DNA of 64,000 nt from an uncultured Lachnospiraceae bacterium. GTDB taxonomy: Bacteria; Bacillota; Clostridia; Lachnospirales; Lachnospiraceae. The notes below the pieces were generated by a model. The model had not been told where the DNA came from. It was given only the letters and a program-made list of their open reading frames with translations, and ran no database searches. Where the stretch lies: assembly GCA_947173945.1 (NCBI GenBank), contig CAMWGV010000006.1, positions 1 through 64,000 of the forward strand, given 5' to 3'. The translations under genes and the position numbers were made by a program. Shown piece after piece: positions 7,821-54,920 of this stretch; the stretch's first letter is position 1, and each line of letters starts with the position of its first letter.

Positions 7821-9185
7821 TCACTCACTCTTCCCAAGCTTACGGATATAGGAAAGCCCCAGCGGCATTGTCAGCAAAAATGTTAATACATCTGCAACCG
7901 GCTGGGCAATTTGTATTCCAAACAAATCAAATGCATAGCTGAATACAACAAGAATCGGTATGAAGCACACCCCACTCCTGAGCATTGACACCAAAGATGC
8001 TTTTTTATTTTCACCTACACTTTGAAAAAGCATTGAGGTACATATGGATACCGGCTGTACAAACAGTGCCAGCAGCTGATATCGGAGTGCCACTGTGCCT
8101 ATTTCTATAACCATCGCATCATCCCTGAAAATACCCACAAGCCTGCCTGACAAAATTATTCCGACAATAGCCAGAATACCCAGCATCACCTCCGATGCGA
8201 ACCATGTAAAATAAAAGGATTTTTTTACTCTGTCATATTTCCCTGCACCATAGTTAAATGCCGAAACCGGCTGAAAGCCCTGTCCAATTCCAAGACCAAC
8301 TGCAAATATAAAGAAGCATATTCTGTTTACAATAGACATAGCGGCCACTGCCTCATCACCGTAATTGCCTGCCGTACTATTTAAAACCATTGTTGACACA
8401 CTTGTAAGTCCCTGTCTTAACAGGCTCGGAAATCCGGTTTTCATAACAAGCACAATCATTCCAACATTCGCACATGCTGTTGTAAAACTAATCTTACTTT
8501 GTGTTTTCCCTCTCAGAAACATGCTTAAAAGTATCAGAAAGCTGACACACTGTGATACCGCTGTAGATATGCCTGCTCCTGCAATTCCAAGATCAAATAC
8601 AAATATACATATAGGGTCAAGTGCAATATTTATGATTCCACCTAGCGTCAATCCTATCATAGAAAGATATGCTTTCCCTTCATATCTCAAAATATTGTTT
8701 AACACAAAGCTTCCCATGAACACAGGTGCCGCCATCAGAATAAATTTTCCATAATCCTTTGCATATGGAAGTATTGTATCCGTGCTTCCTAGAACCTTCA
8801 TAAGCGGTGATATAAAGCAAAGCCCCAAGACAGTAACAGCAACACCTATTATAATTGCAGAAAAAAAGCTGACAGATGCATATCTTGTTGCATTATCAGA
8901 ATCTTTATCACCCAATCGTCTTGCCACAATACTTCCTGCACCATGGCCAAACATAAAACCAAGTGCCTGATTGATTGCCATAAGACCAAACACTACACCT
9001 ACAGCTCCACTTGCGCTGTTGCCAAGCTTACCTACAAAATATGTGTCAGCCATACTGTAAATGGTTGTAACCATCATGCTGATAATGGTTGGTATGGCAA
9101 GTCTTGTAACAAGCTTTGCTACCGGTGTATTTACCATTTTATCATAATGAGCGGCACTCGCCGCCGCTTTATCATCCTTATTCAT
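7821..9185 (-). CDS. MATE-family efflux transporter (second copy, distinct subfamily)
   Basis: 454 residues with twelve predicted membrane helices. The N-terminal part KLVTRLAIPTIISMMVTTIY followed by ADTYFVGKLG and SGAVGVVFGLMAINQALGFM is typical of the DinF/MepA-like branch of MATE antiporters. A GIGQGFQPVSAFNYGA motif lies at the start of the second half. It exports a cationic drug or metabolite by ion exchange; the substrate is unknown. It is not a duplicate of the other MATE gene in this window, since the two differ throughout. The ribosome site is weak. Confidence 0.87.
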   Translation of the reverse strand: MNKDDKAAASAAHYDKMVNTPVAKLVTRLAIPTIISMMVTTIYSMADTYFVGKLGNSASGAVGVVFGLMAINQALGFMFGHGAGSIVARRLGDKDSDNATRYASVSFFSAIIIGVAVTVLGLCFISPLMKVLGSTDTILPYAKDYGKFILMAAPVFMGSFVLNNILRYEGKAYLSMIGLTLGGIINIALDPICIFVFDLGIAGAGISTAVSQCVSFLILLSMFLRGKTQSKISFTTACANVGMIVLVMKTGFPSLLRQGLTSVSTMVLNSTAGNYGDEAVAAMSIVNRICFFIFAVGLGIGQGFQPVSAFNYGAGKYDRVKKSFYFTWFASEVMLGILAIVGIILSGRLVGIFRDDAMVIEIGTVALRYQLLALFVQPVSICTSMLFQSVGENKKASLVSMLRSGVCFIPILVVFSYAFDLFGIQIAQPVADVLTFLLTMPLGLSYIRKLGKSE

Positions 9186-9263
9186 ATCTCTACCGCCAAT
9201 ATAATTAAGTATAAATTCATCTTGTCAAAAATCATCGTATTAAAATGCTGATATCCTGCTATT

Positions 9264-9566
9264 TCACACCTCATAATCCATACATAGTCTTATCTCTGTA
9301 AACGGTCTGACATAAGTATTTGCAACGTTTACATGCTCAGGATGACTCTGATATCCTGCAAGTGCTTCCTTGTCAGAAAGAACACTGTCAAGCATCACGT
9401 CAGCATTGGATGAACCTAATGGATTAATAATTATATTTATATCCTCTAATCCCGAAATCTTTCCCTTTAAGCCCTCCAAGTTCCTTTTCATGTCTTCAAG
9501 TATCTTTTTCTTTTCATCCTCCCCTAAGGTTTCCTTAAGCTTCCATAAAATAACATGCTTTACCAT
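9264..9566 (-). CDS. Dabb-family (stress-responsive alpha/beta barrel) protein
   Basis: 100 residues. The opening VKHVILWKLKE and the ending with the NVANTYVRPFTEIRLCMDYEV strand are the hallmark of Dabb domain proteins, small dimeric ferredoxin-like barrels. Most bacterial members have no assigned function. I choose the ATG at 9566 because GGAGG lies seven bases before it; a longer frame from 9593 lacks a ribosome site. It follows the hydrogenase-like/HD-GYP gene after 27 bp and may be cotranscribed with it. Confidence 0.8.
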   Translation of the reverse strand: MVKHVILWKLKETLGEDEKKKILEDMKRNLEGLKGKISGLEDINIIINPLGSSNADVMLDSVLSDKEALAGYQSHPEHVNVANTYVRPFTEIRLCMDYEV

Positions 9567-9593
9567 TTTATATCCTCCTATATTTGTATCCAT

Positions 9594-11552
9594 TTATTGT
9601 ACCTGAATATCATCCTCAAAAGTGCCCTCTTCAATAAGCTCCAAAAGTATATCCACAATATGGGCATCTAACTGGGTTCCCGAAACCCGTTTCAGCTCAT
9701 CAATAATATGTTCCATTGGCATGCATTTCCTGTACGGACGGGTCGAATGCATAGCATCAAATGTATCTGCAACTGCAATAATTCTGGCAATCTGCGGAAT
9801 TTCCCTTTCCTGCTTTCCGTTCGGATACCCCTTTCCATCTACACGCTCATGATGGTACCCTGCGCCAAGTGCCAGATTCGGAAGGCTGTCAATTTCCTTT
9901 AAAATATCGTAACCATACTGTGCATGCTGCTTAATCATTTCATACTCACCATCTGTAAGCTTTCCCGGCTTATTTAAAATTTCTTCCGGTATTACAACCT
10001 TACCAATATCGTGAAGCAGGGCAATATGATAAATATTTTCAAGCTTTTTATCATTATATCCCATCTTCGTTGCAATCATCCTTGCATACTCTGCCACACG
10101 GAAGGAATGTCCCTTTGTATACTGATCCTTAAGGTCAATACTTTTTGCAAACGCACGTATCATCTGATTAATGAACAGCTCGCCTTCCTTTTCCTCCTTA
10201 ATCACCCGTTTTAATTCCTCATTTTGTTCTTTCATCTTGACAGAAAAAGCATGAAGTTCATCCTTCATATAATGAACACAGTTTTCCGGTATATTACTGC
10301 CATTGTAAATTGCTGCTGCCATTTCCAGACAATTTCCATATCCACATGCTCCACAATTAATATTCCTTTGTGCCCAGCTTTTTTTATTCATGGAAATGAA
10401 TATTTCATCCAATTCCTTGTCACTTGGCTCACGCAAAGAAATACTGGTAGATTTATCAGAATAGCTTCGCATAAAATCCCGAATATCCAATTCGGAAAAC
10501 TGCTTGTTAAACTGCTCTAAACGTTCCGCCGGAGTGAGCTTTTTTGAAAATGGATTTTCTTCATTGTTTTTCTTACAGCATTCTCTGATTTCCTGCAGAT
10601 TATAATAATTATCCTCAGAATAATTCTTTTCCGTTTCAATACCCGTTCCGTAAAGACAGCCTCTGTCACAGTTTAAAATATCAACCATAAACGGTAATCT
10701 CTGCCCTCTTGCCAACCTTTTTCTGTAATCCTCCAAAAAGGCATATGCACGCTTTTCTCCTTCTACCTGTCGTATAAATGCATCTTCACCACAAAACCAG
10801 TACACATTCTCTTTAAGCCCTCCCGGGGTTGGATAAACAGCTCCCAAACCATATTCTATCTCATCGGATGCATCTTTTCCAATGATATGATGCTTTCCTA
10901 CATACTCCATAAAATGGTTGAAGGTCAGATTATATGATACGTATCCATTCGTATTCGGGTCCGTAATCTCAATCTTTTTTGCAATACATGGACTGATAAA
11001 TGCCAGCTTATCCGTAATATGCATATATTTTTTTGCATAAATTGCCGTGCACAGCAAAGGACTATGAATCGGCATCAGCTTCTGTATCAAATCCGGTGCA
11101 TAATGCTCAATGTAATTAACTACTGCCGGACAAGGCTGTGAAATTCCGCCCTGTAGATCATGCTCAGAAATATAGTTGATATATCCCCATGTGGTAATGT
11201 CAGCACCAAAACTGACACTTATAATACGATTGACACCTAAATTTTTCAATCCACCCAATATAGAGGCATATTCCTCTGGATAATTCGCCTGAAATGACGG
11301 AGCCAGCAGCACAGATATCTGCTCGCCACGTTCTAAATCACGGAAAAACTGTTCCGTGTCATCATAATATTCTCTGGCATTATGCTCACAAACATCAAAG
11401 CATGCACCGCAACCGACACAATTTTCGCTATGTACCTCAATCCGCTGTCCAGCTTCTGCACGAACAGAATAATTTGCAGTAAGCACCGGACATACTGAAA
11501 TGCAACGATTACACCCCTGACATTTTTCATTTGTATAAACCAGCTGGCTCAT
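9594..11552 (-). CDS. [FeFe]-hydrogenase-like sensor fused to an HD-GYP phosphodiesterase
   Basis: 652 residues from the ATG at 11552, seven bases after AGGAGG. Residues 1-60 hold two [4Fe-4S] motifs (C11,14,17,21 and C45,48,51,55). About 76-305 is an [FeFe]-hydrogenase H-domain that keeps the four H-cluster cysteines: C141 in SQPCPAV, C189 in SPCIAKK, and C295 and C299 in NCDRGC. The catalytic proton-transfer Cys next to the first ligand is replaced by P140. A further Fe-S motif follows (C400, C403, C408, C425), then a coiled linker and an HD-GYP domain (about 460-650) with LLHDIGK and HHERVDGKGYP. HD-GYP enzymes hydrolyse cyclic di-GMP. The loss of the proton-relay Cys argues for sensing H2 or redox state and not for turnover, as in sensory hydrogenases. 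Rubredoxin and rubrerythrin genes lie just upstream. Confidence 0.85.
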   Translation of the reverse strand: MSQLVYTNEKCQGCNRCISVCPVLTANYSVRAEAGQRIEVHSENCVGCGACFDVCEHNAREYYDDTEQFFRDLERGEQISVLLAPSFQANYPEEYASILGGLKNLGVNRIISVSFGADITTWGYINYISEHDLQGGISQPCPAVVNYIEHYAPDLIQKLMPIHSPLLCTAIYAKKYMHITDKLAFISPCIAKKIEITDPNTNGYVSYNLTFNHFMEYVGKHHIIGKDASDEIEYGLGAVYPTPGGLKENVYWFCGEDAFIRQVEGEKRAYAFLEDYRKRLARGQRLPFMVDILNCDRGCLYGTGIETEKNYSEDNYYNLQEIRECCKKNNEENPFSKKLTPAERLEQFNKQFSELDIRDFMRSYSDKSTSISLREPSDKELDEIFISMNKKSWAQRNINCGACGYGNCLEMAAAIYNGSNIPENCVHYMKDELHAFSVKMKEQNEELKRVIKEEKEGELFINQMIRAFAKSIDLKDQYTKGHSFRVAEYARMIATKMGYNDKKLENIYHIALLHDIGKVVIPEEILNKPGKLTDGEYEMIKQHAQYGYDILKEIDSLPNLALGAGYHHERVDGKGYPNGKQEREIPQIARIIAVADTFDAMHSTRPYRKCMPMEHIIDELKRVSGTQLDAHIVDILLELIEEGTFEDDIQVQ

Positions 11553-11593
11553 TATGCTCCTCCTTGCTTCGTTGGGTCTCAAGTCTTGGGCCT

Positions 11594-11681
11594 TGCCCTA
11601 AGGAATCCTACTGCTTCGCAGGGCACGGTCCTTCGGCCCTTGCTATGTCCTCCCAACTTCGTTGGGTCTCTCCTTAGGGCA
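11594..11681. repeat. palindromic repeat block TGCCCTAAGGA ... TCCTTAGGGCA
   Basis: A perfect 11-bp inverted repeat (TGCCCTAAGGA at 11594, TCCTTAGGGCA at 11671) encloses CTGCTTCGCAG and GGTCCTTCGGCCC-type hairpins and a CTTCGTTGGGTCT string that also occurs just outside at about 11568. The layout matches the TGTCCTGAGG repeats at 49.6, 53.4 and 56.2 kb. It lies in the leader of the hydrogenase-like/HD-GYP gene. Confidence 0.7.
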
Positions 11682-11772
11682 TATTATACCATATCGTCAA
11701 TCGTAGATTGGCGATGCACTATTTGCGATGTTTTTTCGCAAAGTATAATGTGCGTTTACGCACATTATACCA
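11679..11772. repeat. 94-bp triple-hairpin repeat, copy 1
   Basis: Differs from the copy at 54827-54920 at only three positions. It contains three consecutive hairpins: CGTCAATC with GATTGGCG, TTGCGA with TCGCAA, and the perfect TATAATGTGCG/CGCACATTATA around TTTA. It sits in the gap between the rubredoxin terminator and the hydrogenase-like/HD-GYP gene. The function is not known; it is an interspersed repeat that would fold in RNA or single-stranded DNA. Confidence 0.85.
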
Positions 11773-11795
11773 TGTAAAATATAGAATTGTAAATC

Positions 11796-21849: not shown

Positions 21850-21975
21850 CAACGATTCTTCTTCCATCCAGACTTTACTGTCGGCTCCGGAATCACACCG
21901 GATCTGCCATCAGGCTCGCGGGCTCGTGCAAAAACACATACCGCCGGTCGGGAATTTCACCCTGCCCCGAAGTAT
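21850..21975 (-). ncRNA. FMN riboswitch (RFN element)
   Basis: On the minus strand the segment starts with CTTCGGGGCAGGGTGAAATT, then CCCGACCGGCGGTA, a variable arm, GAGCCCGCGAGC, CTGATGGCAGATCCGGTG and TCCGGAGCCGACAGT, and closes with GGATGGAAGAAG. This is the conserved six-helix FMN aptamer. It heads the riboflavin operon and should switch the downstream terminator on when FMN binds. Its 5' end is only about 12 bp from the stop of the preceding Sel1 gene, so its promoter must lie within the end of that gene. Confidence 0.97.
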
Positions 21976-21987
21976 ATTAATTTGTAT

Positions 21988-54793: not shown

Positions 54794-54826
54794 ATTGCTT
54801 CTCCTGTAATGTATGTTGTTATATAG

Positions 54827-54920
54827 GCATATTATACCATATCGTCAATCGCAGATTGGCGATGCGCTATTTGCGATGTTCTTTCGCAAAGTATAATGTG
54901 CGTTTACGCACATTATACCA
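54827..54920. repeat. 94-bp triple-hairpin repeat, copy 2
   Basis: Matches copy 1 at 11679-11772 except at three positions. Contains the same three hairpins, including the TATAATGTGCG/CGCACATTATA palindrome. It fills most of the gap upstream of aroA. Confidence 0.85.

Follow-up and report, generated by a model that had tools for sequence, protein, structure and literature searches.

We identified, in an uncultured Lachnospiraceae bacterium (assembly GCA_947173945.1), a gene in which a sensor of the [FeFe]-hydrogenase type is fused to an HD-GYP domain. The gene occupies positions 9594..11552 on the minus strand (ATG at 11552, TAA at 9594-9596; 652 aa) of a 64,000-nucleotide stretch of contig CAMWGV010000006.1, hereafter the window. 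The best explanation of the whole, which we hold with moderate confidence, is a cytosolic one-component sensor of H2 or redox state that would drive a change in cyclic di-GMP (c-di-GMP) hydrolysis, with motility as its likeliest target. Under this model, the H domain, supplied by two [4Fe-4S] clusters, would read H2, or the redox state imposed by H2, and pass its reading to a C-terminal [4Fe-4S] cluster. The signal would then run, probably within a dimer, along a coiled-coil linker into the HD-GYP domain, where hydrolysis of c-di-GMP would change, and the likeliest target would be the flagellum, reached through a YcgR-like protein. The fusion itself probably originated when HD-GYP replaced the signalling domain of a methyl-accepting chemotaxis protein (MCP) in a C2-like chemotaxis sensor.

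The initial annotation of the gene had proposed the fusion of an [FeFe]-hydrogenase-like sensor with HD-GYP, and this part of it stands, with both domains present and the HD-GYP catalytic residues kept. Two supporting arguments, one drawn from Pro140 and the other from the neighbouring genes, do not hold, as described below.

Domain content and conserved residues

The protein starts with a ferredoxin-like region (11373..11552; residues 1-60; like all parts of the gene on the minus strand) that matches Fer4 families and carries two CxxCxxCxxxC [4Fe-4S] motifs (C11/14/17/21 and C45/48/51/55). The H domain (Fe_hyd_lg_C; 10647..11318; residues 79-302) is recognised by Pfam and by its fold, which was matched in the PDB with the modelled structure, coverage among the matches listed being mainly of residues 1-372. 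All four H-cluster cysteines (C141, C189, C295 and C299 of the window protein) are kept, as the initial annotation had stated, and the domain thus combines the fold and the ligands of an [FeFe]-hydrogenase H domain; K192 corresponds to CpI K358. A FeS (iron-sulfur) motif, Cx2Cx4Cx16C (PF04060; 10275..10361; residues 398-426; C400/403/408/425), a helical linker (10158..10274; residues 427-465) and the HD-GYP domain (9657..10151; residues 468-632) complete the protein. No match to PAS or to MCPsignal was found in it at E <= 0.001, HD-GYP being present instead of the latter. Furthermore, HydG is encoded in the genome, making H-cluster maturation possible, and the window protein is likely to bind an H-cluster.

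The HD-GYP domain keeps its metal ligands and the HHExxDGxGYP motif. In a sequence alignment, D476, H482, H514, D515, K518, H543, H567, H568, D596, D599 and R605 correspond in the same order to D183, H189, H221, D222, K225, H250, H276, H277, D305, D308 and R314 of PmGH, whose residue roles we take from its published description (PMC4159591), and seven of the eight PmGH ligands are present. PmGH E185 is replaced by Tyr478, as in the Y/F subfamily, natural members of which are predicted to be bimetallic (PMC4159591). Activity is expected because the PmGH catalytic residues are kept and Y478 fits the Y/F subfamily, and hydrolysis of c-di-GMP is a highly probable function. A different output, with some other cyclic dinucleotide as substrate or with HD-GYP serving as a protein-binding platform, seems improbable. 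It would agree with the best PDB sequence match, a 3'3'-cGAMP phosphodiesterase (5z7c), and with Arg608 in place of PmGH K317, though R605 is kept; however, neither K317A nor R314A substantially lowered activity in the PmGH variants described (PMC4159591), and the genome holds 20 GGDEF matches and a PilZ protein of the YcgR type.

Origin of the fusion and its linker

We compared the protein with a genus sample of 37 genomes, 80 named loci and an order sample of 392 genomes. Matches over all 652 positions were found in three of the genus genomes, namely its own (G000), G036 (95% identical) and G028 (85%). One of the named loci, L067, from a metagenome-assembled genome (MAG) titled Clostridium sp. 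NALB_7861_8, encodes the fusion with the same Pfam domains at 72% identity over 651 residues. In the order sample, with about three candidates scored per genome, the only full-length match among those listed was the window's own, and the order and phylum loci that we fetched contained no additional HD-GYP fusion, which is not proof of absence. Both halves of the gene are under purifying selection: dN/dS (the ratio of nonsynonymous to synonymous substitution rates) was below 0.25 in all eleven computable stretch comparisons, with 0.036 and 0.059 for the H domain, 0.067 and 0.091 for HD-GYP and a maximum of 0.236 for the linker against G036, while dS was saturated in one comparison (residues 306-397 against G028). 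On this evidence we rejected a pseudogene or a chance open reading frame (ORF).

G000, G036 and G028 each encode a second sensor whose match to the window protein ends at residue 446-472. The one from the window's own genome (L002), the only one of these three that was fetched, has an MCPsignal domain according to Pfam and is 59-60% identical to the window protein. More widely, we collected 221 distinct sensor-like ORFs. The source loci had been selected for their similarity to the window and in part for frame length, and the following counts are therefore not frequencies. Using home-made hidden Markov models (HMMs), we assigned 149 of them to MCP, 13 to histidine-kinase type, 9 to sigma-54, 6 to EAL+GGDEF, 4 to HD-GYP and 2 to GGDEF outputs; 8 were short or had no output and 30 were unclassified, 25 of the latter with a HisKA-like motif. 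Pfam confirmed MCPsignal (L002, L231, L225, L211, L139, L046), HisKA (L179, L183, L021, L216), sigma-54 (L205, L213), GGDEF+EAL (L117, L120, L138) and GGDEF (L166). The sigma-54 activator fusions of this sensor type comprise L205, which also has PAS, and L213, together with seven similar ORFs found by HMM.

In a FastTree phylogeny of 177 rows with local support values, from which 44 of the 221 rows were omitted (all MCP-labelled, either near-copies or under 300 aa), the window protein and its three HD-GYP relatives group as a single clade (support 99) that is nested within the MCP-linked sensors. This nesting argues for one swap of the output domain. By tree grouping, as distinct from the HydDB classifier, the sensor half thus falls with the MCP-linked [FeFe] sensors of the C2 kind, the MCP output itself being absent. 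A second clade (support 96), apart from the HD-GYP clade, holds five of the six GGDEF-EAL proteins, and since the two clades are distinct, two separate moves from a chemotaxis output to a c-di-GMP output are well supported by the tree, and more are possible. Elsewhere in the tree, on long branches of uncertain position, are the sixth, L202, and the two GGDEF proteins; the placements of L166, L202 and L239 are all of this kind. The initial annotation, sound on the fusion, had included neither the MCP-linked paralog nor the single output swap, nor the separate GGDEF-EAL and GGDEF outputs.

The GGDEF-EAL clade consists of L117, L120, L131, L138 and L051, four of them from MAGs titled Lachnospiraceae or Oscillospiraceae. 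Judged by eye, the GGDEF motif is degenerate in L117 and L120, where the EAL motifs looked for are kept; both motifs are kept in L138 and L051 and both look degenerate in L202. In another family of the phylum, the same sensor type is joined to a GGDEF domain with an intact motif (L166:1402-3237). At G048:C39 (L025), an MCP-linked [FeFe] sensor (10107-11444) is preceded, about 0.5 kb upstream and on the same strand, by a separate HD-GYP match (8992-9624).

The fusion joint can be placed in the helical linker, at about residues 452-472, because similarity to the MCP-linked kin stops at residues 464-472 and similarity to the propeller-type (Reg_prop) HD-GYP proteins of the genus, with 59-61% identity in four of them, starts at 452. 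The linker of L067 is exactly seven residues longer (62 versus 55). Among the MCP-linked kin, the distance between the final FeS cysteine and the hairpin was measurable in 146 of 149 ORFs, and in 137 of these it falls into one of two modulo-7 classes (5 and 2). A continuous coiled coil would require such heptad steps.

Signal, target and rival readings

Next, we examined the positions from which proton transfer starts in related enzymes. The initial annotation had concluded from Pro140 (codon 11133..11135), which stands at the position of CpI C299, that catalysis was unlikely. Proline occupies this position in 211 of the 221 ORFs, including 4/4 HD-GYP and 148/149 MCP proteins, and therefore marks no loss special to the window protein. 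Moreover, TmHydS and TamHydS, in which C299 is lost to Ala, are described as retaining slow H+/H2 interconversion, and restoring the Cys in TmHydS lowers its activity (PMC8163306, PMC10407848, PMC10055695). Because turnover survives the loss of C299 in these two enzymes, the earlier conclusion was too strong; for proteins with Pro at this position, both slow turnover and none are possible. The positions of TamHydS E252 and E289 are Leu and Asp in all HD-GYP (4/4) and MCP (149/149) proteins, as Leu246 and Asp291 in the window protein. In this family the group A proton path thus lacks its first residue and the group D path its E252, and E289 is Asp, a change that in TamHydS is reported to leave 70% of H2 evolution and <=3% of H2 oxidation (PMC10407848). 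The group D (M2e) signature A137/E252/E289 is replaced by P140/L246/D291. Of the group C (M2f) traits described for TmHydS, the loss of C299 and the Cx2Cx4Cx16C domain are found and the PAS domain is not. PAS was likewise absent from L067 and L002, and none of the HD-GYP or MCP-linked homologues examined has a Cys corresponding to C299; the initial annotation's reading had depended on close homologues having neither. The Ala/Glu/Glu signature was seen in two other ORFs, one each in L176 and L177, two genomes in which a short hydrogenase with this group D-like signature adjoins an MCP-linked sensor.

The genome has three Fe_hyd_lg_C matches, among them L001, a group B1 enzyme of the catalytic type (TIGR04105 score 613.7 bits, cut-off 450). 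With this as the catalytic-type member, we rejected ordinary hydrogenase activity as the main role of the window protein. The sequence does not by itself settle which way the signal runs, and the flow could in principle be reversed, with c-di-GMP (or GMP) bound at HD-GYP gating a slow hydrogenase, in line with the catalysis described for TmHydS and TamHydS without C299 (PMC8163306, PMC10055695). We consider this very improbable: the domains to which this sensor type is joined in other proteins (MCP, histidine kinase, sigma-54, GGDEF and EAL) act as output modules, and the active-site signature is unlike that of L001 (TSCCP, group B1).

The initial annotation had also taken the rubredoxin and rubrerythrin genes beside the fusion as a redox setting. 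In the window, the neighbours are rubredoxin and a Dabb/MatE pair, and rubrerythrin adjoins the gene in this one genome. Elsewhere, with names assigned by eye, they are patatin-like, acyltransferase and rpsO-like genes (G036), aroA (G028), which the sensor gene overlaps by 4 bases, and polyamine genes (L067). A redox operon was rejected, as the HD-GYP gene, with the frames that it contains, is all that the window ORFs below 20 kb share with the stretches from G036, G028 and L067. The G036 and G028 stretches have in common only the HD-GYP gene and one distant 27% match; L067 was compared with the window and not, by BLAST, with these two, and gives the downstream side only, since its contig starts 451 bases before the frame.

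A dispersed, partly palindromic repeat with 13 genome matches (self-matches included) lies just upstream of the gene, at 11553-11780, and a 95-base copy, 97% identical, lies beside an aroA homologue at 54826-54920. The repeat at this site, where G028 carries the sensor gene, hints at gene movement but does not prove it. No RNA switch was found upstream of the gene at Rfam gathering scores; the only Rfam match in the window is an FMN riboswitch at 21852-21978 on the minus strand (120.1 bits).

A further rival is a redox or O2 sensor, with no more than a [4Fe-4S] cluster or a never-turning H-cluster at its H site, whose signal would be oxidation or loss of a FeS cluster in an oxygen-exposed anaerobe. 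Such a sensor is unlikely, although it would account for the eight ferredoxin-type and four C-terminal cluster cysteines, which are invariant in a 41-row alignment (A3), for the changed proton-path positions and for the rubredoxin and rubrerythrin genes of this genome. However, A3 shows the same invariance for the four H-cluster cysteines and for the equivalent of CpI K358, purifying selection on the H domain is strong and those neighbours are not conserved. Within the favoured reading, H2 and general redox state are about evenly balanced as the signal.

Regarding the target, the genome has matches to GGDEF (20), CheW domains (six) and PilZ (one). The sole PilZ match has a YcgR N-terminal domain and lies between FlhA/FlhF/FlhG-like genes and CheB/CheA/CheW, which makes motility the likeliest target. 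Less c-di-GMP would be expected to release a YcgR brake, as in other bacteria. Control of motility by the window protein is nevertheless, taken alone, a tentative proposal. More speculative still is a joint reading, in which [FeFe] sensors would be a plug-in family whose H2/redox module was joined separately to c-di-GMP enzymes (HD-GYP here, GGDEF-EAL in Lachnospiraceae/Oscillospiraceae-titled MAGs, GGDEF in another family). The HD-GYP protein and its MCP paralog would then act on one motor, the MCP setting direction via CheA/CheY and HD-GYP setting speed via c-di-GMP/YcgR, thereby coupling hydrogen taxis to hydrogen kinesis.

Several points weigh against the H2/redox sensor that we favour. 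The known proton-path starts are changed, at Pro140 for group A and at Leu246 and Asp291 for group D; the gene has no conserved neighbour tying it to H2 metabolism; and the genome has no c-di-GMP-I riboswitch match, in a search whose control was equally silent and which is thus uninformative. The model shows two linker helices (426-450 and 455-475) with a low-confidence break at 446-457 in place of one confident continuous helix. Nine of the 146 linker distances fall outside the two modulo-7 classes, and the 146 rows are not 146 independent events because linker-length classes and tree share ancestry. Domain content, ligands, catalytic residues, phylogeny and selection are established at the level of sequence; the signal ligand, cofactor and catalysis of the window protein we infer from it.

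Comparison with known systems

H2 sensing by group C and D [FeFe]-hydrogenases is described as proposed, not shown, with an unknown signalling route (PMC13104023, PMC8163306). Because the output here is an enzyme whose reaction is easy to follow (c-di-GMP to pGpG or GMP), the fusion makes this proposal assayable at the bench. If the proposal is true, H2 or redox state would feed directly into c-di-GMP in these bacteria, the relatives of which, by record title, come largely from gut and rumen metagenomes. We found no published description of an [FeFe]-hydrogenase sensor joined to HD-GYP in the open-licence literature, where a search for GGDEF or EAL outputs on such sensors gave only a paper titled on [NiFe]-hydrogenase.

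HydDB lists [FeFe] groups C1 (histidine kinase), C2 (chemotactic, putative) and C3 (phosphatase), as well as the diguanylate cyclase-linked [NiFe] group 2c (putative) (PMC5037454). The window sensor half resembles C2 in its ferredoxin clusters, H domain and FeS domain and in its nesting among MCP-linked members, but its output is HD-GYP rather than MCP, and the HydDB table links none of C1-C3 to c-di-GMP turnover (PMC5037454). Group 2c shares the proposed route from H2 sensing into c-di-GMP, but is an unrelated enzyme tied to synthesis and not hydrolysis (PMC5037454). TmHydS, the group C proposed sensor of Thermotoga maritima, likewise lacks C299 and has an H domain with extra clusters, but it has PAS, and Ala131, Gly177 and Ser267 where the window protein has Pro140, Ser187 and Leu293 (PMC10055695). 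TamHydS, of group D from Thermoanaerobacter mathranii, resembles the window protein in having no PAS, M353 changed to Ser, M497 changed to Leu and the Cx2Cx4Cx16C domain; it differs in Ala137, E252 and E289 (Pro140, Leu246 and Asp291 here) and, as described, in having no fused output (PMC8163306, PMC10407848, PMC13104023). The globin-coupled HD-GYP of Vibrio fluvialis also unites a gas-sensing metal domain and HD-GYP in one protein, but through a heme globin with no FeS or H-cluster (PMC10882959). Compared with these systems, the window protein is a new output type on an already known kind of [FeFe] sensor.
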